Virus record (IMG/VR): IMGVR_UViG_3300033182_000235
Span: 1-21,528 of that record
Length of the DNA: 21,528 nucleotides
Reading direction: 5' to 3' (one strand)
Source of the DNA: a virus
Of this stretch, positions 1-14,850 are shown in pieces (the stretch's first letter is position 1; each line of letters starts with the position of its first letter). The notes under the pieces were generated by a model. The model had not been told where the DNA came from, searched no databases, and saw nothing but the letters and a program-made list of their open reading frames with translations. Position numbers and translations under genes: made by a program.

Positions 1-1047
1 AACATCAATTTTATCGTAAAGTTCCAGAAAAGACTGTTTAGTTTCATCGTCAAAGCGATTAATGCAAACTTGAATTGCTTTTGCTTTATCTTTAAAAATA
101 GCATAAGCACGAATGATATGAACCAAGCGGCGGGTGCTGATAATTTCCTCAATACCACCATCGTAGAACGTCTTCCTAATAATATCAGACCAATTTACCA
201 ACTGCTTGCAGAAGTCGGCATCATTGACACCAAGACCAGCAGCAACACCCTCAAGGATCTTCTGCTCTGTTTTAGGAGTCGGATACTCCTGCTCAAAAGT
301 CACAGGGAAACGCTCAAGGAACGCCTCATTCAGAACGTTGGTGCCGATGAAGCGACCGTCATCAGAACCCTTACCCTTGGTGTTAGCAGTGGCAATGACG
401 TTGAAACCAGCAGCAGGCTTGACCCACTTACCAATCTTCTTCAGAAACACACCCTTACCTTCAAGGATGGATTGGAGACAGAGGATTTTATTGGAAGCCA
501 GGTCGATTTCGTCCAGGAGAAGGACTGCTCCTCGCTCCAGTGCTTCGATGACGGGACCGTTGTGCCATGCAGTGTTCCCATCAACAAGCCTAAAACCACC
601 CACCAGGTCATCCTCATCAGTCTCAATCGTAATGTTTACACGGATCAACTCACGCTTCAGTTGAGCACAAGCTTGCTCCACACCAAACGTTTTGCCGTTA
701 CCAGAAAGTCCAGTGATGAAAGTAGGATAGAAAAGACGGGACTCAATAATTTTCCGAATATCACCAAAGTTACCAAACTTGACGAAGGTATCATCTTTCG
801 CGGGGATAAGGTTTTGCTGTTCCTGAACGGGAACAATTGCAGCAGGTGCCTGGTAGGTTTGCTCCATTTGTTCCCGAACGGTAAGGTTCCACTTACCACG
901 ACCAGTTTTATATTGATCCAGTTTTTTAGTAACGGTCTGGTAGTTGGCACCATTCATAGCACACCAGGCACGAATTTCGGCGGCAGTCACAGACTCGCCG
1001 TACACTGCTTGGAGCGAAGTGCGGATGTAGTCGGCGGAGATGGTCAT
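1..1047 (-). CDS. cobS: CobS/MoxR-like AAA+ ATPase, C-terminus cut by window edge
   Basis: I read 349 uninterrupted codons from an ATG at 1045-1047 to the window edge, so the stop codon lies outside. Residues 1-60 look like a small helical DNA-binding-like domain and residues 90-310 form an AAA+ module. Visible motifs are Walker A GLSGNGKT (113-120), Walker B LLLDEID (176-182), a sensor-1 type IATAN (218-222), an arginine-finger type FLERF (243-247) and a sensor-2 type STRR (304-307). These fit the MoxR/CobS family, whose members remodel targets together with a VWA partner; in cobaltochelatase the partner is CobT. The CobT-like partner is encoded just upstream at 1425-3569, which supports a working pair. 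Cyanophage copies are usually annotated CobS, but no cobalt-insertion subunit (CobN) is visible here, so a role in cobalamin synthesis is unproven. A promoter and terminator lie just upstream. No clear Shine-Dalgarno sequence precedes the ATG. Confidence 0.9.
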   Translation of the reverse strand, partial: MTISADYIRTSLQAVYGESVTAAEIRAWCAMNGANYQTVTKKLDQYKTGRGKWNLTVREQMEQTYQAPAAIVPVQEQQNLIPAKDDTFVKFGNFGDIRKIIESRLFYPTFITGLSGNGKTFGVEQACAQLKRELIRVNITIETDEDDLVGGFRLVDGNTAWHNGPVIEALERGAVLLLDEIDLASNKILCLQSILEGKGVFLKKIGKWVKPAAGFNVIATANTKGKGSDDGRFIGTNVLNEAFLERFPVTFEQEYPTPKTEQKILEGVAAGLGVNDADFCKQLVNWSDIIRKTFYDGGIEEIISTRRLVHIIRAYAIFKDKAKAIQVCINRFDDETKQSFLELYDKIDV

Positions 1048-1076
1048 GATGTCGTTTGTGTTTTTCAACTGAAGTT

Positions 1077-1121: not shown

Positions 1122-1394
1122 TCAAGAATCGGACAACAAGAATTCTTCTAGTTCTTGTGCCATTCTTCGTCTGGAATGTCTTTTGTCAAGTTCAATACCG
1201 ACCGTTCTTCCATACTCTTCCAATTCATCCTTGGTCATTTCGTGGAGGTTAACCTCACTTTCATATGGAAGAAGTTCAACAACTTCTTCCTCAGCAGCAG
1301 GTGCTTCTACTACTTCTTCTACTACTGGTTCGGGAGTTGGTGCAGGAGCTGGTGCTGCTTTTTTACCTCCAAGTAATTCTCCAAATCTAGACAT
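1122..1394 (-). CDS. Pro/Ala/Glu-rich small protein with SAP/HeH-like C-terminus
   Basis: This is a 90-residue protein of unknown function. Residues 1-11 (MSRFGELLGGK) precede a low-complexity Ala-Pro-Glu-Val region (about 12-42) that is probably a flexible acidic linker. Residues 50-88 (NLHEMTKDELEEYGRTVGIE and following) look like a helix-extension-helix/SAP-type fold: the pattern is Leu, MTKDEL, then a basic KRHSRRR segment and a final amphipathic helix. Such folds often bind nucleic acid, but this assignment is by pattern only. The gene lies between the CobT-like and CobS-like genes, 30 bases after the first, with a GATAAATA late-promoter motif overlapping the upstream stop codon and a strong terminator right behind it. 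An AGG about 11 bases before the ATG could be a weak ribosome-binding site. Confidence 0.8.
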   Translation of the reverse strand: MSRFGELLGGKKAAPAPAPTPEPVVEEVVEAPAAEEEVVELLPYESEVNLHEMTKDELEEYGRTVGIELDKRHSRRRMAQELEEFLLSDS

Positions 1395-1418: not shown

Positions 1419-1426
1419 TATTTATC
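1419..1426 (-). promoter_or_regulatory. Putative late promoter (GATAAATA) for the 90-residue gene
   Basis: GATAAATA matches the T4-type late consensus NATAAATA. It lies about 25 bases before the ATG at 1394 and overlaps the TGA stop (1425-1427) of the CobT-like gene. Confidence 0.5.
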
Positions 1427-3569
1427 AGGCAACAAGTTCCACAAACTCTCCAAGGATTTTCTTGTTCATCTTTTTAGATTTGAGACTCTTAACAAAGGCA
1501 GATTTGATCTGTGTCTTAGTAGCATCTTCCTTCACCTCAAACTCAGTGTCCTGAGCGAGAGCATTTGCAGAAATACCAAAGTAAGCGTTGTATCCAGACT
1601 TCTTGATGGTAAATGCTTTTTCCTTACGCCAAACGCTCATGGTCTTATCGTGCTCAGGACCAAAGTATCCACAATAACGACGGATAAAGGAACCAGCATC
1701 ACGAGACTCAAGAACTCGGATACCAATGAAGTTGATATCTTTGAACTTGTCGCGGAGGTTGCGAAGAAGAATATCGGTAAACTCATACCACTCACAATCC
1801 AGAGAGTAAGTCATGCCAGTCTTACGATCGCGGAGGAAAGAATTGGGATAGATGTTGGAAGTACCCATGAAAGGTTCCTTCTCATAGTGGCGTTGAATTT
1901 CGCGGTGATACTTACACATTGCTGCCTCACCATCAGTTAGAACGACACACTGAACCTTTTGGAGTTTGTTTTCCTTCTGGAACTTAGGAAGAATCTGATG
2001 GAGAGCAATCAGAGTCTCATTCAGAGGAGTTCCAGAGAGACTCATACCATAAGGAACGGGATAACGAACATAACAGTTATAACGGAAGGAAGAAGCAAGA
2101 CGGAACAGGTTCTTCATCTGTTCTTCCAGAGTTTTACCATTAGTCTTGCTGGTAAGCATATTCATCAAAGAGAACCACTCACCAACCTGAACCAGTCCAT
2201 CTTTCTTGGTGTAGGCAAGTTCACGAATGTCTGCCTTACCTTCAATATCATATTTCACCAAAGGATAGTCACTAGTAAATGCATAAACCTCAAACGGGAT
2301 GGCAACTTTCTTACAGAACCAAACAAGGTTGAAGAGTTGCTTGACCGTATCCAGCATCACATCACCCATAGAACCCGACCAATCAAGAATGAACACCAGA
2401 CCGTGGTTCTTACCATCAGCAAGAGTGGTGACCTTCTTGAAGAGGTCTTCATTGTACTTGTAGGTGTGGAGTTTAGTACAATCCAACACACCAGTGCGAG
2501 AAGTAGTAGCACGGGCATAAGAATCTGCTGCCTTACGGCACTCAAACTCTTTCACCAGATAGTTGACCTCTTTCTGTGCGGAACGCTTGAACTCTACAAA
2601 CTTACGATCGACTTCACCAAAGATTTCTTCGGTAGAGTGCTCTCGTTCTTCGAGATAAGCATTCCAGTATTCTTTACACTTATTATGGATTTCGGAGTTG
2701 GGTATGATAATTTTATTCAGGTCAAGTTGAGGCAACTCAAGGTAAACGTTCTCAGGACCACCATTCTCAACCAGTTGCTTGAGTGCTTCCTCAAGAGACT
2801 CCATGGTTTTGACTTCAGGTTCTTCATTGGTTTCGCCACCAGAAGCAGTAGGTTGCTGATCACCTTCAGCAGTACCACCGAAAGAATCAGTTTCACCTGG
2901 TTGCTCCTGATCATTATCATTCTCACCCTCAGGTTGGTCAGAGAAGTCGGATGCAGGTTGGTTACCACCAGTTTGCTGCGACTCCAAAGAATCCATTGGA
3001 GTCTTAGTCTCTTCTTCTTGCTTCTTCTTACAAAACTTATAAAGAAACTCTGCTGCGATAAGAACATCGGAGAAGGTCTCACAAGCACCAATCATACGAA
3101 CGATAGGCATCTCATCAAATTCCACAAAAGGAATATCAACAAAATTACCAATCTTATAATACAGATTCACCTTATCGGCAAGGTTATATTCTTTTACATC
3201 ATCATCACCGATTTGGAAGAAGTCTTGTTCGGCAAGCTCTTTGTATCCATTATAGAAGGTCTTGGAAAGACCAGCATAACGACGCTTCATCAGTTTCTCA
3301 ATGCGAGCATCCTCAACCACATTCACGAACTGAGGAGGAACCTTACAAGTTTCCAACCAATTCTCATCTGGAGTGTAGAGAGCGTGACCCACCTCGTGAC
3401 CAACCAGAAGATCATAAACAGTATTGCTTGCTTTCTCCCACATAGGAAGAGTCAACACACGGGTATGGACATTGAAACAAGCAGTCTCAACCTTCTTGTG
3501 CTCAACCACAAGATCCTCAGTGGCAAGGAGTTTAGCAAGTTGGGACTTGATTTCGTGGCGAACGGTCAT
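1425..3569 (-). CDS. cobT: CobT-like protein: zincin-type HExxH domain plus VWA domain
   Basis: This is a 714-residue protein counted from the ATG at 3567-3569. A TTG 30 bases further upstream keeps the frame but lies inside the terminator/promoter region, so I prefer the ATG. The N-terminal part carries HEVGH (residues 58-62), followed 24 residues later by VVEDARIE; H58, H62 and E86 could form a gluzincin-type zinc site. Residues about 180-255 are a very acidic Gln/Glu/Asp/Gly linker, as in CobT proteins. The C-terminal part is a VWA domain with the MIDAS metal motif DWSGS (396-400). Cyanophage homologues are annotated CobT-like or peptidase. The CobS-like AAA+ protein downstream is the expected partner. 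Catalytic peptidase activity is inferred from the motif only. Confidence 0.88.
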   Translation of the reverse strand: MTVRHEIKSQLAKLLATEDLVVEHKKVETACFNVHTRVLTLPMWEKASNTVYDLLVGHEVGHALYTPDENWLETCKVPPQFVNVVEDARIEKLMKRRYAGLSKTFYNGYKELAEQDFFQIGDDDVKEYNLADKVNLYYKIGNFVDIPFVEFDEMPIVRMIGACETFSDVLIAAEFLYKFCKKKQEEETKTPMDSLESQQTGGNQPASDFSDQPEGENDNDQEQPGETDSFGGTAEGDQQPTASGGETNEEPEVKTMESLEEALKQLVENGGPENVYLELPQLDLNKIIIPNSEIHNKCKEYWNAYLEEREHSTEEIFGEVDRKFVEFKRSAQKEVNYLVKEFECRKAADSYARATTSRTGVLDCTKLHTYKYNEDLFKKVTTLADGKNHGLVFILDWSGSMGDVMLDTVKQLFNLVWFCKKVAIPFEVYAFTSDYPLVKYDIEGKADIRELAYTKKDGLVQVGEWFSLMNMLTSKTNGKTLEEQMKNLFRLASSFRYNCYVRYPVPYGMSLSGTPLNETLIALHQILPKFQKENKLQKVQCVVLTDGEAAMCKYHREIQRHYEKEPFMGTSNIYPNSFLRDRKTGMTYSLDCEWYEFTDILLRNLRDKFKDINFIGIRVLESRDAGSFIRRYCGYFGPEHDKTMSVWRKEKAFTIKKSGYNAYFGISANALAQDTEFEVKEDATKTQIKSAFVKSLKSKKMNKKILGEFVELVA

Positions 3570-3591
3570 TGGTCTGTTGCGTATGGACCTA

Positions 3592-3597
3592 TTATAC
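3592..3597 (-). promoter_or_regulatory. Putative -10 element (TATAAT) upstream of the CobT-like gene
   Basis: A perfect TATAAT sits 22 bases upstream of the ATG at 3569, and its first bases are the stop codon of the 48-residue ORF. It directly follows a terminator T-run and has no clear -35 box. A start point about seven bases downstream would exclude the alternative TTG start of the CobT-like gene. Confidence 0.5.
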
Positions 3598-3738
3598 AAA
3601 AGAACCTCGCTGTTTAGGCGAGGTCATGTGACGCTTTTTAAACTGGCGCAGTGCTTCTCGCCGTGCTCTCATTGCTTGAGGTTTAAGTTTTCGTTTTTGC
3701 TCCTTCTTGGAGTGATGCTGCCAGTTTGGGGTGTTCAT
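3592..3738 (-). CDS. 48-residue strongly basic peptide
   Basis: A small ORF starts MNTPNWQHHSKKEQKRKLKP and ends RGSFV-stop. Lys, Arg and His make up well over a third of it, which suggests nucleic-acid binding, but I recognise no family. It begins five bases after the gp46 stop with a purine-rich AAGAAG directly before its ATG, so it fits as the last gene of the gp46 transcript. Its final codons also encode the terminator hairpin at 3598-3623, and its TAA stop is shared with a TATAAT promoter element. The tight fit and good start signal favour a real gene, though its short length leaves doubt. Confidence 0.6.
   Translation of the reverse strand: MNTPNWQHHSKKEQKRKLKPQAMRARREALRQFKKRHMTSPKQRGSFV
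3598..3623 (-). terminator. Rho-independent terminator after gp46 and the 48-residue ORF
   Basis: The minus strand reads CCTCGC, a seven-base loop, GCGAGG, then TTCTTTT. The stem is a perfect six pairs and lies inside the 3' end of the 48-residue ORF. Confidence 0.8.
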
Positions 3739-3743
3739 TCTTC

Positions 3744-5465
3744 TTATGCCTGTGAAGACACCATACGTGAAAAACCTTTGACTTTATCAAATCTGAGGAC
3801 ACTTTCAAATTTGTCCTGTAGGTCCGTCTTATGGGAGATGACAAAAATATTAGCATCTTTAATCACATAACGAATAATCTTAAGGAACTCATCTGTTCCA
3901 AATCCGTCAAGTGAAGAATCAAATACCTCATCCATAATCAGCAGGTTGGTGTTCACCGAGTTCTTGAGTCTTGCAACTTCCCTCCAAGTAAAGAGAAGTG
4001 CTAAGTCAATTCTCATCTTCTCACCTTCACTAAACGAACTATAAGAAAAGTCTTCGTGGATGGGAGATTTTACAGTTTCGTTAAACTCTTCATTAAGATG
4101 GAAGTTAATATAAAAATCCATCAGTTGGAGATAACGATTGACCTGCTGATTTATGAACGGAAGATACTTCTTGATTATCTTCGTTTTTACACCATCATCT
4201 CTGAGTAGAGAATAGGCAAAATCGTAATGAACGATTTCCTGTTTTTTAGTAGAGAGGTCTTCTATTGTCTTGTGGAGATTTTCTTTAAATTCTTCTAGTT
4301 TCTCATGTTCAGTATTTCGGTTTGCAAGGTTCTCGGTAATTGTTTGAATTTCATGCTCAAGATCTCTGATTTGTCTCTGGTTGAGGCTAATCCGAGTATT
4401 GTTTTGAGAAATGCCATGCGTTAAGTTTGTGATCTCCTGGGAAAGTGCGGTGAATTGACGCTCTCTTTCTTGTTCGAACTCAATTGTTTTTTCAAGTTCG
4501 TTATAACCATCTTTAAGTTCCTTTGCTTTATTTTGAGCGTCGCTAATTCTATTTAACCGAAACTCTTCCTCAATACTCTGAGTGCATGTAGGGCATACCG
4601 TATTTTCAGTGAAAAACTTATGCTCTTTCGTAATAGCAGACACTTTCTGGGAGATTTTACCTCTAAGATTGTTTAGTTTTACTAACTTTTTACTGGCATC
4701 TGTAAGACCTTGTTGCTGTTCAGTAAGTTTGCTTAGTTGCTCATTAGTCTTATCATTTTCTTCCATGTAAATACCAACTTCTTTGAATAAGTTGGTAATT
4801 TTTTCTTTGTTGGTATTGATATTGGCGTTTCCCCTATTCTCCAACTCATCGATGAAGTCCTGTTGCATCTTCATCTTGTCCTTAAGAGTTTCTTTCTTCA
4901 ACTCCAAAGATTTGATTTGATCCTTCTTCTCACGAATCTTGTCCTTGATGAGAGCATTCATCGCAGAGAAGATACGAATATCCAATAGATCCTCAATCAC
5001 CTCACGACGATTAGAAGTCGTCAGTTGCATGAATGGAACAAAGGTGCTGCTGCCCAGAATCACAATCTGAATAAAACTCCGGAAGTTTACCTTAAGAATA
5101 TTTTCTTCTAATATTTTTTGATTAGCGCGGTCATCTGCTTCCTTATGAAGAGCAATTCCGTTCACTTCAATATCAAATAGAGATGGTTTGATACCACGTC
5201 TAATCATATATTCTTTATTGTTGATAGAAAACTCAATCTCAACAACACAATCTTTCTCATTAGTGGTGTTTACTAACTGTGGTTTGTTAATCTTACGAAA
5301 AGCACGATTGAATAAAACAAAACAAATTGCGTCAAGGCAGGTGCTCTTTCCTGCTCCATTTGTCCCAATAATTAAATTGGTTTTATGTTTTAAGAAATCA
5401 ATTTCAGTAAAGTTATTTCCAGTGCTTAAAAAGTTCTTATAACGAAGTTTCTTAAATGTAATCAC
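3744..5465 (-). CDS. gp46: Recombination endonuclease large subunit gp46 (Rad50/SbcC-like)
   Basis: This 573-residue SMC-type ATPase forms, with gp47, the Mre11/Rad50-like nuclease that resects DNA ends for recombination-dependent replication; T4 gp46 is about 560 residues. Motifs seen are Walker A GTNGAGKST (34-42), a Q-loop region near 136-148, the zinc-hook CPTC (291-294) in the middle of a long coiled coil (about 170-440), the ABC signature FSEGEK (478-483) and Walker B LLIMDE (508-513), followed by the D-loop FDSSLDG and the H-loop His in VISHK (about 545). The start is GTG at 5463-5465; no upstream ATG keeps the frame and MITFKKLRYKNF matches the family N-terminus. No clear Shine-Dalgarno sequence is present. 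A near-consensus sigma70 promoter lies about 22 bases upstream. Confidence 0.96.
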   Translation of the reverse strand: MITFKKLRYKNFLSTGNNFTEIDFLKHKTNLIIGTNGAGKSTCLDAICFVLFNRAFRKINKPQLVNTTNEKDCVVEIEFSINNKEYMIRRGIKPSLFDIEVNGIALHKEADDRANQKILEENILKVNFRSFIQIVILGSSTFVPFMQLTTSNRREVIEDLLDIRIFSAMNALIKDKIREKKDQIKSLELKKETLKDKMKMQQDFIDELENRGNANINTNKEKITNLFKEVGIYMEENDKTNEQLSKLTEQQQGLTDASKKLVKLNNLRGKISQKVSAITKEHKFFTENTVCPTCTQSIEEEFRLNRISDAQNKAKELKDGYNELEKTIEFEQERERQFTALSQEITNLTHGISQNNTRISLNQRQIRDLEHEIQTITENLANRNTEHEKLEEFKENLHKTIEDLSTKKQEIVHYDFAYSLLRDDGVKTKIIKKYLPFINQQVNRYLQLMDFYINFHLNEEFNETVKSPIHEDFSYSSFSEGEKMRIDLALLFTWREVARLKNSVNTNLLIMDEVFDSSLDGFGTDEFLKIIRYVIKDANIFVISHKTDLQDKFESVLRFDKVKGFSRMVSSQA

Positions 5466-5804: not shown

Positions 5805-6844
5805 TATTCTACTTCGCAAGCTTGTCTATACAAATCTTGGAAGATACCTTTGATTACAGTTTTATCAAACTCAAATTCTGATTCTTCAATATAACGATTT
5901 AGAATAGAAATTGTGCTTTCTTCTTCGTCAATATCAAACTCTTCGCTTTCATGGACATCAAAGTTCTCAACAATTTTGAGATCTTGAATTCCTACACTAT
6001 GAAGTTTATCAATGAATCTTTCAAAATCTTTGGGGTTTGTCTTTTTACGGACGATTACCTTGACGATTTTGTTTTCATACTCCGTAGCATTGAAGAGTTT
6101 GTAGTTGGTATCCTCATAATAGATATTATAGAATAATTTATAAGGATTGTTTACTGGGGTCAGAGTGAGGGTTTCCGTATCAAAGATATGAAAACCACGA
6201 GTATCATTCACATCCGTCCAATACATCTCATAAGGATTTCCTAGGTATGAGATTCTTCCGTCAGACGATCGAGTGTGATAGTGTCCCGAGAAGACATGAT
6301 CGAACTTCTCAAATAGTTTGCTTTCCAAACCATGCTCCATGATGATTTGTCGATTAACTCTAAATCCTTGTAATTCCAAGTGCCCCAGCGAACACCGGCA
6401 AGAAGTCTTTTTAATAGCGTTGAGAGATAATTCTTCATTTTCTTGATTAATCCACGGTAAAAATAACATTTTCAAACCACCAAGTTTAACTTCGGTAGGT
6501 TCTTTATAAACTTTTATATTTGAATAATTTTGTAAGAGAAGTTCTGGTGAATTTAAATTGTTAGTATTTTTAAAATATACATCATGATTCCCAGTAATAA
6601 TATGAAAATCTATATTTCGTTTTAAAGCAGGATCAAATATAACTCTTTTTCCCCATTCTATCGCTTTATAGTCAATAGATTTTCTATTATCAAAACAATC
6701 TCCCATATGAATGATTGTTTTTACATTGTATTGGTCAAGGGCAGGAAAAAATACCTCGTTATAAAACTTCTCAAAATAATCATGAAGATATTGAGATGTT
6801 TTTCTTGCCCCTATGTGGGTATCAGAAATAATTGCGACGAGCAT
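5804..6844 (-). CDS. gp47: Recombination endonuclease subunit gp47 (Mre11/SbcD-like)
   Basis: This 346-residue calcineurin-like phosphoesterase is the nuclease partner of gp46; T4 gp47 is 339 residues. All metal-binding motifs are visible: DTH (8-10), MGDCFDNR (47-54), TGNHD (84-88), GHLEL (154-158), SGHYHTR (186-192) and GNPYE shortly after. The C-terminal third (about 230-346) is the acidic capping and partner-binding part. The ATG is at 6842-6844, one base after the stop of the HNH gene, so translation is probably coupled. The stop overlaps the start of the next gene. It lacks its own evident sigma70 promoter, and the nearest motif upstream is the late-type TATAAATA in front of the HNH gene. 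Confidence 0.96.
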   Translation of the reverse strand: MLVAIISDTHIGARKTSQYLHDYFEKFYNEVFFPALDQYNVKTIIHMGDCFDNRKSIDYKAIEWGKRVIFDPALKRNIDFHIITGNHDVYFKNTNNLNSPELLLQNYSNIKVYKEPTEVKLGGLKMLFLPWINQENEELSLNAIKKTSCRCSLGHLELQGFRVNRQIIMEHGLESKLFEKFDHVFSGHYHTRSSDGRISYLGNPYEMYWTDVNDTRGFHIFDTETLTLTPVNNPYKLFYNIYYEDTNYKLFNATEYENKIVKVIVRKKTNPKDFERFIDKLHSVGIQDLKIVENFDVHESEEFDIDEEESTISILNRYIEESEFEFDKTVIKGIFQDLYRQACEVE

Positions 6845-6845
6845 A

Positions 6846-7304
6846 TCAACCTTTTAAACGATTTTCTTTCCAAGGAAGCATTTGTAAGTTTTCTACTCTA
6901 CAACATTGTTCAGGTGATAATCCCAAATCAAAACATTCTTTTACAGACTGTATGTGGTCGAGTTGATATCCACCATCTACACCGGCAATAGTGCGTCGGT
7001 AGTTGTTTGGATTTATAACATGATTATACTCCGCATACACCAATTCCGTCAAGTAGGAGCATCTCCCCCTATACCTCTTCCATTCAGAAATATCATATCC
7101 TCTTTTTGAGGTGAGTGTTTCCGACATTTTTCTTTTAGTTTCTTCACTTCTAGGTCCGGTTTTTAGACCTTTATTCCAAGGAGGTTTACCAGAAACTCCA
7201 TATCCTTTACCCTTCCGAGTTTCAGACATTCTCTTTTTAGTTTCTTCGGAATGTTTCTGAACTCCTTTAAGTCCCTTATTCCAAGGAACAACTTTTTTAG
7301 TCAT
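6846..7304 (-). CDS. HNH homing endonuclease with two NUMOD3-like repeats
   Basis: This is a 152-residue free-standing homing endonuclease, counted from the ATG at 7302-7304. A GTG at 7325 would add seven residues but lies at or before the expected start point of the TATAAATA promoter. The N-terminal half holds two copies of a DNA-binding element: PWNKGLK (7-13) followed by HSEETKKRMSETRKG, and PWNKGLK (42-48) followed by SEETKRKMSET. The C-terminal half carries the HNH core: LDHIQS (about 115-120), then VENLQMLPWKENR near the end. It cuts DNA to spread its own gene. It sits between gene 55 and gene 47, which are neighbours in related phages, bringing its own promoter and a bordering terminator. 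Confidence 0.88.
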   Translation of the reverse strand: MTKKVVPWNKGLKGVQKHSEETKKRMSETRKGKGYGVSGKPPWNKGLKTGPRSEETKRKMSETLTSKRGYDISEWKRYRGRCSYLTELVYAEYNHVINPNNYRRTIAGVDGGYQLDHIQSVKECFDLGLSPEQCCRVENLQMLPWKENRLKG

Positions 7305-7328
7305 CTGCTTTATGTTGTGTCGCACTTT

Positions 7329-7336
7329 TATTTATA
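7329..7336 (-). promoter_or_regulatory. Late promoter (TATAAATA) for the HNH gene and gp47
   Basis: TATAAATA is an exact match to the T4 late -10. It lies about 25 bases before the ATG at 7304 and three bases after the T-run of the hairpin at 7339-7366. Confidence 0.65.
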
Positions 7337-7338
7337 TG

Positions 7339-7366
7339 AAAAGGGGGGGAGAAATCCCCCCCTTTT
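7339..7366 (-). terminator. Strong terminator after gp55, near-symmetrical
   Basis: Seven G, a seven-base loop and seven C form the stem, flanked by A-run and T-run on both sides, so it could stop transcription in either direction. It follows gene 55 by about 36 bases and immediately precedes the TATAAATA of the HNH gene. Confidence 0.88.
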
Positions 7367-7396
7367 GCTTAGGGTTGCGACACACATAAGCATGAT

Positions 7397-7404
7397 TATT
7401 TATT
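7397..7404 (-). promoter_or_regulatory. Possible late promoter motif (AATAAATA) at the end of gene 55
   Basis: It matches NATAAATA but overlaps the gp55 stop and lies upstream of the terminator at 7339-7366, so a transcript from it would be stopped early. It is probably weak or fortuitous. Confidence 0.25.
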
Positions 7405-7927
7405 AACGGTTCTTGTATTGGATTTGATCTTTGATGCTATTATACTCCGAACTGTGCCCAGAAAGCAAGCTGTCGTCAACCATCATAACCTCATCAAATC
7501 CAGTTCGCTCAATGATTTTAGTTTTGATATCCAGTTGCTTCTTCTCCTTCTGAATGCGTCTCAGAAAGGCGTAGTGAATGATCTGCGTAAAGTAAGCAAA
7601 TGGATTCTTGGACTTTTCTGGATCGAAATTGTGAATGTATTGAACGCAATTTTCAATTCCGTCCGAAATCATGTCCTCACGGAACATATAGTTTACAAAG
7701 TTGGGTTTATAGGAAAGATGAGTTGCGATTTTAAGAAAACATTCACCAAGATAATTCGGAATTGGTGGTTTACCTTCCCACTGCTTTCCTCTTTCTTGTT
7801 TAGGTTGCTCAGTGAGATCTTTATTGAAAGTCTTTTTGTATGATACTTCTACCCTTGCACGGTAGTTAATCATTGCCTCTAACAACTCTTTATTATTTAC
7901 ATAGTGTTCTGTCTTCTTTTTGGGCAT
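7403..7927 (-). CDS. gp55: Late-promoter sigma factor gp55
   Basis: This 174-residue small sigma factor replaces host sigma on RNA polymerase to read late promoters; T4 gp55 is 185 residues. The conserved region-2-like segment is at about 80-130: YMFREDMISDGIENCVQYIH, then FDPEKSKNPFAYFTQIIHYA and FLRRIQKEKKQ. It has no region 4, as usual for gp55. The N-terminus is Lys-rich. In T4 the extreme C-terminus binds the sliding clamp; I do not see an obvious hydrophobic clamp motif in the last residues (NSIKDQIQYKNR). The gene stands alone between a sigma70-type promoter and a strong terminator, which fits expression ahead of the late genes that it controls. Confidence 0.93.
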   Translation of the reverse strand: MPKKKTEHYVNNKELLEAMINYRARVEVSYKKTFNKDLTEQPKQERGKQWEGKPPIPNYLGECFLKIATHLSYKPNFVNYMFREDMISDGIENCVQYIHNFDPEKSKNPFAYFTQIIHYAFLRRIQKEKKQLDIKTKIIERTGFDEVMMVDDSLLSGHSSEYNSIKDQIQYKNR

Positions 7928-7959
7928 AACATCGGACTCTTCTAATATAAGTTGTTATT

Positions 7960-7987
7960 ATTATACCATACTTTGGGGACTTGACAA
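7960..7987 (-). promoter_or_regulatory. Sigma70-type promoter for gp55
   Basis: TTGTCA (7982-7987), a 16-base spacer and a perfect TATAAT (7960-7965) lie about 33 bases before the ATG at 7927. A host-type promoter is expected for the gene that turns on late transcription. The remaining part of the gap up to 8036 shows nothing else that I recognise. Confidence 0.7.
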
Positions 7988-8036
7988 CATTGGAAAATAT
8001 GTGTAGACTACCTTTGTCCGGGTTGAAGAGTCAGCT

Positions 8037-8465
8037 CTAGCTTTCTATTGAGTTATTAAAGATATCTTCAAGTTTCTTTCGAGCATCTTCTACCGATGAT
8101 ATATATCCCATCTTTTTAGAAGGTCTAGTAGGACCAGATTCCTTGTTATTGGATGAGTGATAAACATCTATTCCATCATCCTCTTCATCATTGATATAAT
8201 TGTTGTAAATATCAATCAACCTATCATCGGTGGTTTCCGTCATGGTAATAATTCTATCAGGTTTTATAATAAAGATATTATCGGAAGACATTTCAATCCA
8301 TGACTTTACCTTTATATGCATCCCATGATGAGTATTATAAACTTTCATCGTAATTGGGTTTTGCAATAGAAGCAATGGATCACCATCATTCTCATCAATA
8401 GAGACTAGTGATAGAATCTCTTCACCAGATGTAAGTTTTATGATTGCGTAGAATTCGTCTCCCAT
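8037..8465 (-). CDS. Conserved unknown, possibly Lsm-like, coupled to uvsW
   Basis: This is a 142-residue protein of unknown function. Residues 1-78 show a small beta-barrel-like pattern: FYAIIKLTSGEEILSLV, then LLLLQNPITMKVY, then IKVKSWIEM and a last strand IFIIKPDRIITMTE. The KLxSGEE...NP arrangement recalls Sm/Lsm-like domains. Residues about 85-142 are polar, with an acidic NDEEDDG stretch and a Lys-rich helical end. The ATG overlaps the uvsW stop as TAATG, so the two are probably translated together, which hints at a nucleic-acid-related job. The fold call is by eye and unproven. Confidence 0.8.
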   Translation of the reverse strand: MGDEFYAIIKLTSGEEILSLVSIDENDGDPLLLLQNPITMKVYNTHHGMHIKVKSWIEMSSDNIFIIKPDRIITMTETTDDRLIDIYNNYINDEEDDGIDVYHSSNNKESGPTRPSKKMGYISSVEDARKKLEDIFNNSIES

Positions 8466-9928
8466 TAGTTTTTAAGCGGAATGTTTACAATATCGTAATT
8501 AAAATTCTCCTCGTTATAAACTTTAATTCTTTCGATTAGATGATTAAGGGTGTAATTTCTCCTAGACTTGTAGGAAATGTCGTCAGCAATATCATATAAA
8601 GTTGCTTTTGTCTTGTTATTGCCTTTCCTGAGGACCCTTCCAATACTTTGCAGATTTCTAATTCTGGACTTTGAAGGAGAAGCAAAAATAACATTGTGGA
8701 GATTCTTGATGTTAATTCCTGTAGAGAATGTTCCGTATGAAGCGACGATAATCGCGTTGTTTTCTCTTTCTGTAATCTCCCTCACCTTCTCTCTATCTTC
8801 TGTTGCCACTCCACCATGAACAAAGAAGACATGACGTTCATCTGCCTTAGAGTTATTTATTAAATCGTAAAGTGGTTGTCCGTGCCCTTCAACACGGGAG
8901 AATAGTATGAGCGTATTGCCTTTAAGATCAAGGGCAAGGTTACGTATAAACTTGTTGCGTCGTTCATGATTGATAATGTACTGGACTTCTTCTTCAAAAT
9001 TTTCAAACTTATGTGGTGAGTGTTTTAATAGAAGCACGTTGATATCCAATTTGGCAACGTGCCCTTTCTTCATCAGTTCTTCCGTTCTGATGATCTTATA
9101 TGATGGTCCAAACAGACCTTCCAACACCCACTTATGAGTTTGAGTTCCGTCTAGCGTGCCTGTAAAACCGAAACGATATTTACAGTCAGCAAGCTTAGAC
9201 ATTATAGATATTAAAGACTTAGACTTAAACTGGTGTGCTTCATCTCCAACAACCACATTAAATCTTGAAAAATATTTGCGGGGAAGTTTGTAGATGGACT
9301 GCCAGGTGGTGATAATCACCTGTGAGTCAGTCTCTCTTTCTTTTCCCGCATATATTTTGTGGCAAAATGAACCTACGTCAAACCCATAACTTGAAAAATC
9401 TTTATACATCTGCTCTACAAGGGATGTCGTTGGGACAACTACGAGAATATTTTGTCCTTTCTCAACGTAATATCTCACAATCGAGTATATCATCAGGGAC
9501 TTTCCAGAAGCAGTTGGAGATATCAACAACTTTCTATTATGTTTTAGGGCGTCGTATACTCCCTCAACTTGATAATCACGGGGAGTATAAGCACAAATAG
9601 AATTCATATAGTCTTTTACACCTTCTTTTGAAATATGTTCATTTACCTCAAAAGGAAGTCCATAAAATTTATTATTCTTAAATTCATATGTGTAGTTGTG
9701 ATTTTCACAAAATTTAATAAGTTTATCTAGTAAACCACAATATATTTCACCAGTATTAACATTAAACAAATAAATGAAACCGTCCCACCATTTATTTTTA
9801 TACGCTGGTGAAAATTTTGCGTTTGGAACTTCAAACTGAAATGTATCTCTTAATTCATAATAGACGTGAGGTTCTGCCGTAACGTGTAAAAAAACCTCAT
9901 TTTTCTTTTCTATAATCAAATGACTCAT
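8465..9928 (-). CDS. uvsW: UvsW-type RNA-DNA and branched-DNA helicase
   Basis: This 487-residue superfamily 2 helicase processes R-loops, branched DNA and stalled forks in the T4 recombination pathway; T4 UvsW is about 500 residues. An N-terminal substrate-binding domain covers about 1-110. Helicase motifs are Q-like YTPRDYQ (114-120), Walker A SPTASGKS (137-144), Ia VVPTTSLVEQ, motif II DEAH (229-232), motif III FTGTLDG, motif V YGTFSTGINI and motif VI QSIGRVLRKG. All key residues are present. An AATAAATA late motif lies about 24 bases upstream, in keeping with late expression of UvsW in T4. A homing endonuclease gene separates it from uvsY. Confidence 0.95.
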   Translation of the reverse strand: MSHLIIEKKNEVFLHVTAEPHVYYELRDTFQFEVPNAKFSPAYKNKWWDGFIYLFNVNTGEIYCGLLDKLIKFCENHNYTYEFKNNKFYGLPFEVNEHISKEGVKDYMNSICAYTPRDYQVEGVYDALKHNRKLLISPTASGKSLMIYSIVRYYVEKGQNILVVVPTTSLVEQMYKDFSSYGFDVGSFCHKIYAGKERETDSQVIITTWQSIYKLPRKYFSRFNVVVGDEAHQFKSKSLISIMSKLADCKYRFGFTGTLDGTQTHKWVLEGLFGPSYKIIRTEELMKKGHVAKLDINVLLLKHSPHKFENFEEEVQYIINHERRNKFIRNLALDLKGNTLILFSRVEGHGQPLYDLINNSKADERHVFFVHGGVATEDREKVREITERENNAIIVASYGTFSTGINIKNLHNVIFASPSKSRIRNLQSIGRVLRKGNNKTKATLYDIADDISYKSRRNYTLNHLIERIKVYNEENFNYDIVNIPLKN

Positions 9929-9951: not shown

Positions 9952-9959
9952 TATTTATT
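9952..9959 (-). promoter_or_regulatory. Putative late promoter (AATAAATA) for uvsW
   Basis: It matches NATAAATA about 24 bases before the uvsW ATG and overlaps the stop of the GIY-YIG gene. Confidence 0.5.
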
Positions 9960-10512
9960 TTGGTAAAAAACGACCTTTATCATCTCTTTTTTTATTCAAA
10001 GTTGTATTTTGACCTTTTCTTTCCTTGTTAAGTCTAATCATATTTTCTCTCCTCCTCTGCCTATCTTCTTCACTAACATTTAATTTATATCCACTTCCTT
10101 TTTTCTCATTCATCATTTTCGCCCTATTAGAAAGAATATCTCTTTGCTCTTCACTTAAAGTTTGTTTTGTTCCCTTTGGACATCCAGTTATTTTTTCCTT
10201 TGTTTCTTTTGAGTGTTTATACCCTAAACAACCCTCTCCTCCTTTTGTTAAGTTATAGTCTGGTTTAAAATATTTAATCCAATATTTTTCTCTTTCTTTT
10301 AAGAGTTTTTTATTATCACCTTGTTCTATTTCTTCAACTATAAAAAAATCTTCTCCATACTTTCTAATTGCAGAGTGGAGATATGTATGTCTTTTTTTAT
10401 TTTGTCTTGATGCTCTTATATGATTTCTCAATCTTACTTGAATTTCATTTATTGTAAACCCAATATAAATTTTATTATTTTTTAAATTAGTTATTTTGTA
10501 AATATATGCCAT
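9955..10512 (-). CDS. GIY-YIG homing endonuclease with NUMOD3-like motif
   Basis: This is a 185-residue SegA-type free-standing homing endonuclease. The GIY-YIG domain covers about 1-90: YIYKITN (3-9), KIYIG (14-18), the likely catalytic Arg in QVRLRNH (R27), a Glu-rich helix KEREKYWIKYF with the metal-binding Glu, and YNLTKGGEG (86-94). Then comes a NUMOD3-like GYKHSKETKEKI (97-108) and a long Lys/Arg-rich tail with segments such as SEEDRQRRRENMIRLNKERK for DNA contact. The gene is visibly more A/T-rich than uvsY and uvsW on either side, a sign of separate origin. The ATG is at 10510-10512 with no strong Shine-Dalgarno sequence. It is inserted between uvsY and uvsW. Confidence 0.92.
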   Translation of the reverse strand: MAYIYKITNLKNNKIYIGFTINEIQVRLRNHIRASRQNKKRHTYLHSAIRKYGEDFFIVEEIEQGDNKKLLKEREKYWIKYFKPDYNLTKGGEGCLGYKHSKETKEKITGCPKGTKQTLSEEQRDILSNRAKMMNEKKGSGYKLNVSEEDRQRRRENMIRLNKERKGQNTTLNKKRDDKGRFLPK

Positions 10513-14199: not shown

Positions 14200-14850
14200 T
14201 TAAAGATCTAAGAGAAATGTCTTAAACAGGTCAAGTTTATGCTCTTCGAGTCTTCTTTGGTCAACAAGAGTGTTAATTCTCTTCTTGGTCTTTTCTGCGA
14301 GTTGCTCACGAAGGATTCCACCTTCCCATACCCACTCTTTTCCTTCCATAATTCCCTGAACAAAAGCATCAGGAGCAGAAGGATCGGCAACGATATCAGC
14401 AGCAGTTGCCAACATGAAATCTTCACCGACAACTTTGTGACCTTCATTTGTAGTTCTTAATGAACCAACACCACGAGAAGAAACACCAAGCATTACACCT
14501 TCATCAAGAAGTGAAGATGCAATCTTACCCATTGGGGTATTGAGGATTTGTGCTTTTCCTCTGAAATTACTTCCTTCTTGAACGAGTGAAGTGATTTTGT
14601 GAGAAACGCGATCAAGGTTCACAGTAGGACCATCGGGGTGACCAAGTTCACCGAGAGCACGACCTTTCTTGACGAAAGTTTCGTTGTATCTCTTTACCTC
14701 ACGGGAAAGAGTTTCCATAGGATACATTCTACCGTTACGGTTTTTGATGTCTCCTTGGAGGAAAACTCCTTCAATATACAGTTTCTTATTAGCACCTTTT
14801 CCTTCGGTGATAATCTGTACGTTTGAAATTTCTTCTGTGATAAGTTTCAT
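14200..14850 (-). CDS. gp21: Prohead core protease gp21
   Basis: This 216-residue serine protease degrades the scaffold and trims the capsid protein during head maturation; T4 gp21 is 212 residues. Visible are KNRNGRMYP (36-44), which opens the conserved core, GELGHPDGPTV (67-77) with the likely catalytic His71, and LGVSSRGVGS (121-130) with the nucleophile Ser124 or Ser125. The Asp-rich TAADIVADPSAPDA follows at about 149-162. The C-terminal part is a Lys/Arg-rich helix, probably self-cleaved or bound to the scaffold. AGGA six to seven bases before the ATG is a good ribosome-binding site. It starts three bases after the preceding gene. Confidence 0.95.
   Translation of the reverse strand: MKLITEEISNVQIITEGKGANKKLYIEGVFLQGDIKNRNGRMYPMETLSREVKRYNETFVKKGRALGELGHPDGPTVNLDRVSHKITSLVQEGSNFRGKAQILNTPMGKIASSLLDEGVMLGVSSRGVGSLRTTNEGHKVVGEDFMLATAADIVADPSAPDAFVQGIMEGKEWVWEGGILREQLAEKTKKRINTLVDQRRLEEHKLDLFKTFLLDL

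Follow-up and report, generated by a model that had tools for sequence, protein, structure and literature searches.

The 714-amino-acid protein that is encoded at positions 1425-3569, on the minus strand of the window (the whole stretch of 21,528 nucleotides that we analyzed), is probably a gluzincin-type zinc metallopeptidase fused to a VWA domain, and it probably acts with the MoxR-type AAA+ ATPase encoded downstream. This view is based on sequence comparisons and on a predicted structure. A previous reading, from the sequence alone, had also proposed an ATPase-controlled metalloprotease rather than a chelatase subunit. That proposal is favored by the invariance of the putative metal site, the order of the helices in an AlphaFold2 model, the adjacent MoxR gene, the lack of HExxH in the genuine CobT proteins that we examined, the lack of CobN in eight complete phage genomes, and the B12 auxotrophy of some of the hosts. 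We infer zinc binding, catalysis (that is, proteolysis), and coupling to the ATPase.

Systems that combine a metallopeptidase, a VWA domain, and a MoxR ATPase are already known. The protein is a full-length member of phrog_459 ("peptidase"), which corresponds to T4-GC 146 of the cyanomyoviruses (E = 5.7e-271, residues 3-714), and we see no essential difference from that family; we found no published test behind the family's name. GenBank mostly names the homologs "peptidase" as well. Independently, a system of this kind was predicted by Iyer et al. 2021 (PMC7824862) for group 2.2 jumbo phages, with ASV44728 as an example protein; they proposed that it acts in virion maturation. The likeness to the window is in the architecture: an N-terminal metallopeptidase, a vWA domain, and an adjacent MoxR ATPase. 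The main text of that paper describes the system in group 2.2, which is mostly gammaproteobacterial, whereas cyanophages and Ochrobactrum phage OC belong to group 2.1 (PMC7824862).

Domains, predicted fold, and gene neighborhood

Translation places HEVGH at 3384-3398, a glutamate at 3312-3314, and DWSGS at 2370-2384 in one open reading frame, at exactly the positions given by the sequence-only reading. The protein has an N-terminal zincin-like domain (residues 1-190, positions 3000-3569), which was delimited from the AlphaFold2 model and from conservation; a linker (residues 191-253, positions 2811-2999) that is acidic, of low complexity, and mostly predicted to be disordered, with pLDDT below 50 at residues 194-239 and no invariant columns; and a C-terminal VWA domain (residues 381-714, positions 1428-2429). 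HEVGH (residues 58-62) is the only HExxH in the protein, while 0.02 would be expected from its composition. H58 and H62 are predicted to be zinc ligands and E59 to be the general base. The predicted third ligand is E86 of VVEDARIE, which lies exactly 24 residues past H62 and within the segment N83-V-V-E86-D87 (positions 3309-3323). The alignment of homologs shows that the MIDAS is complete: it comprises D396, S398, and S400, which form the first motif (D-x-S-x-S, here DWSGS, residues 396-400), as well as T514 and D546. Position 514 is threonine or serine in 333 of 334 homologs. A beta-hairpin region that includes LRDRKTG (roughly residues 567-590) is conserved as well, and it is a candidate for a finger that docks the VWA domain in the AAA+ pore.

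The AlphaFold2 model was built on a 146-row alignment and had a mean pLDDT of 85.7 overall, with values of about 90-97 across most of residues 20-185. In the N-terminal domain, three strands (residues 21-25, 31-33, and 38-42) are followed by a helix that contains HEVGH (residues 49-65) and by another helix that contains E86 (residues 79-97). In this confident model, the order of three strands, HExxH helix, and glutamate helix matches that of gluzincins; the minimal zincin scaffold likewise has a three-stranded sheet (PMC3890501). The sequence-only reading had looked to a predicted structure to bring the two histidines and the glutamate together. The model agrees with this in part, as HEVGH and E86 lie on consecutive helices that come after the three short strands. 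From the model, convergence of H58, H62, and E86 on one metal is likely.

When we searched the PDB for folds similar to the whole model (Foldseek was also run), the matches listed were all to VWA domains and none was to a zincin, which says nothing about the N-terminal domain. The best matches, to roughly residues 300-714, were the MIDAS domain of midasin (Rea1/MDN1; Z = 17.0, rmsd of 3.7 over 224 residues) and NorD bound to NorQ (Z = 15.4, rmsd of 5.9 over 262 residues). Both are systems in which a MIDAS-bearing VWA domain works with an AAA+ ring. Sequence searches of the protein gave no match to named peptidase families and no relevant match to solved structures.

From its reading frames and a search against PHROGs, the window is a fragment of a T4-like cyanophage. 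Its genes are in the order terminase, tail sheath, tube, portal, gp21 head protease (14200-14850), scaffold, gp23, UvsY, UvsW, gp55 (the late sigma factor), gp47, and gp46; then come the metallopeptidase-VWA gene, an ORF of 90 amino acids, and the ATPase. There are also two genes of the homing-endonuclease type, both on the minus strand: a GIY-YIG gene between uvsY and uvsW (9955-10512) and a NUMOD3/HNH-like gene between gp55 and gp47 (6846-7325).

The ATPase gene (1-1068, minus strand) is at the edge of the window and has a TTG start in the ORF call. It encodes a "CobS-like" member of the MoxR family, with matches to AAA_5 (E = 1.8e-17), CbbQ_C (E = 3.9e-5), and phrog_249, and both Walker A (GLSGNGKT) and Walker B (VLLLDE) are intact. 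Among cyanophage-type loci with enough flanking sequence, 216 of 221 have the MoxR gene downstream, as do all 73 loci of a second viral clade (see below). The VWA protein is followed by the ATPase in Syn9, P-SSM2, S-PM2, S-ShM2, and MED4-213, in some cases after small intervening genes, and in relatives gp45 is next after the ATPase. In the window, the intervening ORF (1122-1394, minus strand), which is known from the ORF list and the PHROG search, encodes an acidic protein that is only a putative member of the system. Its C-terminal half has weak likeness to two phage families in which prohead protease inhibitors occur, phrog_8608 (E = 0.0036) and phrog_1051 (E = 0.033). An inhibitor encoded next to a protease would be sensible, but the match is too weak to call.

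Conservation of the putative metal site

By tblastn, the protein is present in 463 phage records, nearly all of them from cyanophages; the other carriers are phages of Pelagibacter, Stenotrophomonas, Pseudoalteromonas, and Ochrobactrum. The 342 homologous ORFs that we assembled came from viral contigs and phage genomes, plus a small number of bacterial assemblies. In all of the approximately 339 ORFs that reach the site, H58, E59, H62, N83, E86, and D87 are identical. We also analyzed a reduced set of 146 sequences with less than 80% mutual identity. Just 30 of the 714 columns are invariant in this set, and these six residues are among them. The sequence-only reading had named variation in H58, E59, H62, or E86 as a possible refutation; neither the 146 sequences nor the larger set holds a single exception, and the chance that these four residues would all fall among the 30 invariant positions is about 2.6e-6. 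Three of the 13 histidines are invariant in the reduced set (H58, H62, and H389).

Across the 146 sequences, H62 and E86 are constant but lie 20 to 43 residues apart. A loop that varies in length between two fixed ends is what a metal site would produce, and not what a segment that is merely conserved would. Furthermore, the invariance of E59, which would be the catalytic glutamate, is more than plain metal binding requires. Some of our scans for homologs used patterns that contained HE, which could have biased the collection. However, the site is kept equally in 80 loci that were found with HExxH-free peptide patterns and in 8 GenBank phages that were found by tblastn, so search bias does not explain the conservation.

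The second clade of viral proteins is far diverged and was gathered with VWA patterns only. It includes proteins from Rhizobium, E. coli, Klebsiella, Salmonella, Roseobacter, and other phages, which are often annotated as "CobT." HExxH and the glutamate of NxxED are kept in 76 of its 86 rows (several rows are identical or near-identical copies). The remaining rows are either gapped (4 rows) or do not fit (6 rows). Among the latter, Pseudomonas phage nickie and Stenotrophomonas phage ANB28 are clear losses; two near-copies have HEVAR; and the other two, which are ORFs that are short or start late, may be misaligned. In place of HExxH, nickie has SEISK and ANB28 has REVST: both histidines are gone, and the rest of each protein is complete. 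Judging from their sequences, these seem to be natural peptidase-dead versions. That a few relatives lack both histidines implies that some lineages can dispense with the site and still have a working machine. HExxH is also present in relatives from Gordonia, Vibrio ICP2, and Roseobacter phages.

In Pseudoalteromonas phage vB_Psh_XG4, the VWA domain (2851-4065) and the zincin domain (4059-5108) are encoded by separate, overlapping genes, followed by the ATPase; thus, the zincin domain stands alone. The order of the two domains is the opposite of that in the other phages that we examined. Although this record carries an UNVERIFIED flag, no point error in sequencing could invert the order of two genes. 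The MIDAS motif of XG4 is DFSWS.

We also considered DUF2201 (PF13203), whose proteins combine HExxH-type and VWA-like domains and whose gene adjoins a MoxR-type ATPase in an Acidimicrobiaceae assembly. As the parent family, it is not supported: in comparisons to two single DUF2201 sequences, there was no significant profile match beyond the HExxH helix. Another protein, with a weak match to DUF2201, turned out to be an M48-like peptidase. The Acidimicrobiaceae protein, with the ATPase gene adjacent, has HQxxH instead of HExxH, which may be a cellular parallel of the decay of the site.

How the protein might act with its ATPase

If the protein is a metallopeptidase, then its VWA domain would probably dock on the hexameric ATPase, in the way that NorD docks on NorQ, and the MIDAS would grip the substrate at an acidic residue. 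Movement powered by ATP would stretch or present the substrate, which would be cut by the N-terminal zincin domain, tethered by the flexible acidic linker. NorQD is reported to act by twisting and stretching the tethered NorD (PMC13036017). The candidate substrates are a virion protein or late protein of the phage, or a host protein.

A metallopeptidase of this type might cleave a phage structural protein, so that the pair would be a virion-maturation device, as proposed by Iyer et al. 2021, and not an anti-host weapon. We view this as possible but somewhat doubtful. The cobS partner belongs to the core set of the cyanomyoviruses (PMC3037559), which is expected for a basic phage function, and an archaeal virus requires a MoxR-vWA pair to assemble its tail, according to work cited in PMC7824862. 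However, a head protease, gp21, is already encoded by the phage, and the two genes lie between gp46 and (in relatives) gp45, in a block for replication and late transcription, not a block for heads or tails. The gene is not named in the text that we consulted on expression timing and virion proteomics.

Another explanation is that the pair is a MoxR-VWA chaperone or metal-insertion machine similar to NorQD. The HExxH-E site would then serve to hold or deliver a metal, or to bind the substrate, with no cleavage. The VWA fold is nearest to midasin and NorD, NorQD inserts iron (PMC13036017), and relatives such as nickie lack both histidines while keeping the rest of the protein. Nevertheless, this seems unlikely: E59, the putative general base, is as invariant as the ligands, which metal storage alone would not demand, and the NorQD papers that we consulted describe no such site in NorD, whose likeness to our protein is in the VWA part.

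The cobalt-chelation reading and a possible origin of CobT

Liu et al. 2021 (PMC8651126) called the "peptidase" label a mistake. In their view, the protein is a viral CobT that, together with the CobS-like ATPase, replaces the motor of the host's chelatase, joins the host's CobN, and raises the output of cobalamin. A partner would be available in some hosts, where such a takeover is conceivable: CobN is present in Prochlorococcus and Synechococcus genomes, and CobT is found in 0 of 41 genomes from the genus Prochlorococcus. There is also distant homology to CobT, by way of relatives, and the ATPase resembles CobS. However, the window protein does not match Pfam's CobT or CobT_C even at E values of up to 10, nor does it match the CobT models in NCBIfam, and its score against a putative-cobaltochelatase model in the NCBIfam search was 9.7 bits (the cutoff is 779). 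Similarly, the ATPase scores 66 bits against TIGR01650 (CobS), whose cutoff is 559. HExxH, which is constant in the cyanophage-type family, is missing from all 25 of the genuine CobT proteins that we examined, which are all from one bacterial order (that of Faunimonas).

The sequence-only reading had noted the lack of a CobN-like gene in the window, which is true but is uninformative for a 21.5-kb fragment. In complete genomes, we found CobN in 0 of 8 phages. Furthermore, the pair is present in Pelagibacter phage Mosig, even though SAR11 is auxotrophic for B12, a trait shared by 99% of Flavo- and Sphingobacteria (PMC9296465). The Nonlabens xiamenensis assembly, in which we did not find a CobN-family protein, includes a T4-like contig that bears both genes; more broadly, we found no CobN in the Nonlabens or Sphingobacteriales assemblies in which these phage genes occur. 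Because an assembly may include contaminating contigs, evidence of this type is supporting and not decisive. Overall, a viral CobT seems very improbable. The protein is not a cobaltochelatase subunit in any demonstrated sense, and the data favor "peptidase" over "mis-annotated CobT."

CobT (PF06213 and PF11775) does share an N-terminal domain, an acidic linker, a VWA domain with a MIDAS, and a CobS-like ATPase partner with the window protein. The difference is at the site, where CobT has [AS]-x-x-L-[RK] instead of the viral HExxH and retains only the third-ligand glutamate, and the window protein falls outside the CobT models. In the alignment, D-[AS]-x-x-L-[RK] of CobT lies opposite D-H-E-x-x-H of the viral proteins, and the glutamate of E-Q-A-R lies opposite E86. 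When we compared the cyanophage profile directly to CobT with hhalign, the match was marginal (E of about 0.008-0.01) and covered the motif region and the start of the VWA domain. The link to CobT rests on intermediates, namely a CobT-like protein from Faunimonas, E. coli phage PhiR41_1, and Roseobacter phage CRP-810. Pfam's CobT model matches the zincin-intact viral domains of PhiR41_1 (9e-27) and CRP-810 (2e-15), so the N-terminal domain of CobT and the viral zincin domain are homologous.

Based on these alignments, the N-terminal domain of CobT may be a decayed zincin, possibly one that still binds a metal. In the genuine CobT proteins from the one order, the third-ligand glutamate (EQARxE) is kept, and two invariant histidines (HDxxxH) adjoin the lost HExxH site. 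The zincin-intact CobT-like gene of Faunimonas pinastri (5959-9525) has its own CobS-like ATPase and a sigma-factor-like gene and is probably part of a prophage; the genome also contains a genuine CobS-CobT pair.

In a tree of VWA domains, cellular CobT proteins lie inside the peptidase-bearing viral clade, and the cyanophage family lies outside, on a very long branch. The rooting depends on that branch, and the support values are quick ones, so the direction of change is inferential. Cellular CobT apparently carries a dead zincin domain. We tentatively suggest, as a possibility and not as our expectation, that CobT branched off from a large viral family of VWA metallopeptidases driven by MoxR and that its peptidase is dead. 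Under this scenario, cells would have recruited a phage machine for protein processing; HExxH would have decayed to [AS]xxL[RK], with the third-ligand glutamate retained; and the motor would have been reused to push cobalt into the corrin ring.

What is new here is a test that favors "peptidase" over "mis-annotated CobT," the extension of the system to cover two clades of viruses, and the interpretation of CobT as a pseudo-zincin, which offers an origin for a B12 enzyme that can be tested. These results are also relevant to the published disagreement about the peptidase label. cobS is a core gene of the cyanomyoviruses, has served as a marker of phage communities in the ocean, and has been read as an "auxiliary metabolic gene" for B12 (PMC3037559, PMC2984593, and PMC9983427), and the gene for the VWA partner is beside cobS in nearly all cyanomyoviruses. 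If CobT is a peptidase-dead offshoot, then the cyanophage "cobS," to which a role in B12 metabolism is widely assigned, would encode the motor that drives a protease. Should its partner be a metallopeptidase, the ecological story about B12 would need revision, and an uncharacterized ATP-driven protease would be at work in a very common group of ocean viruses.
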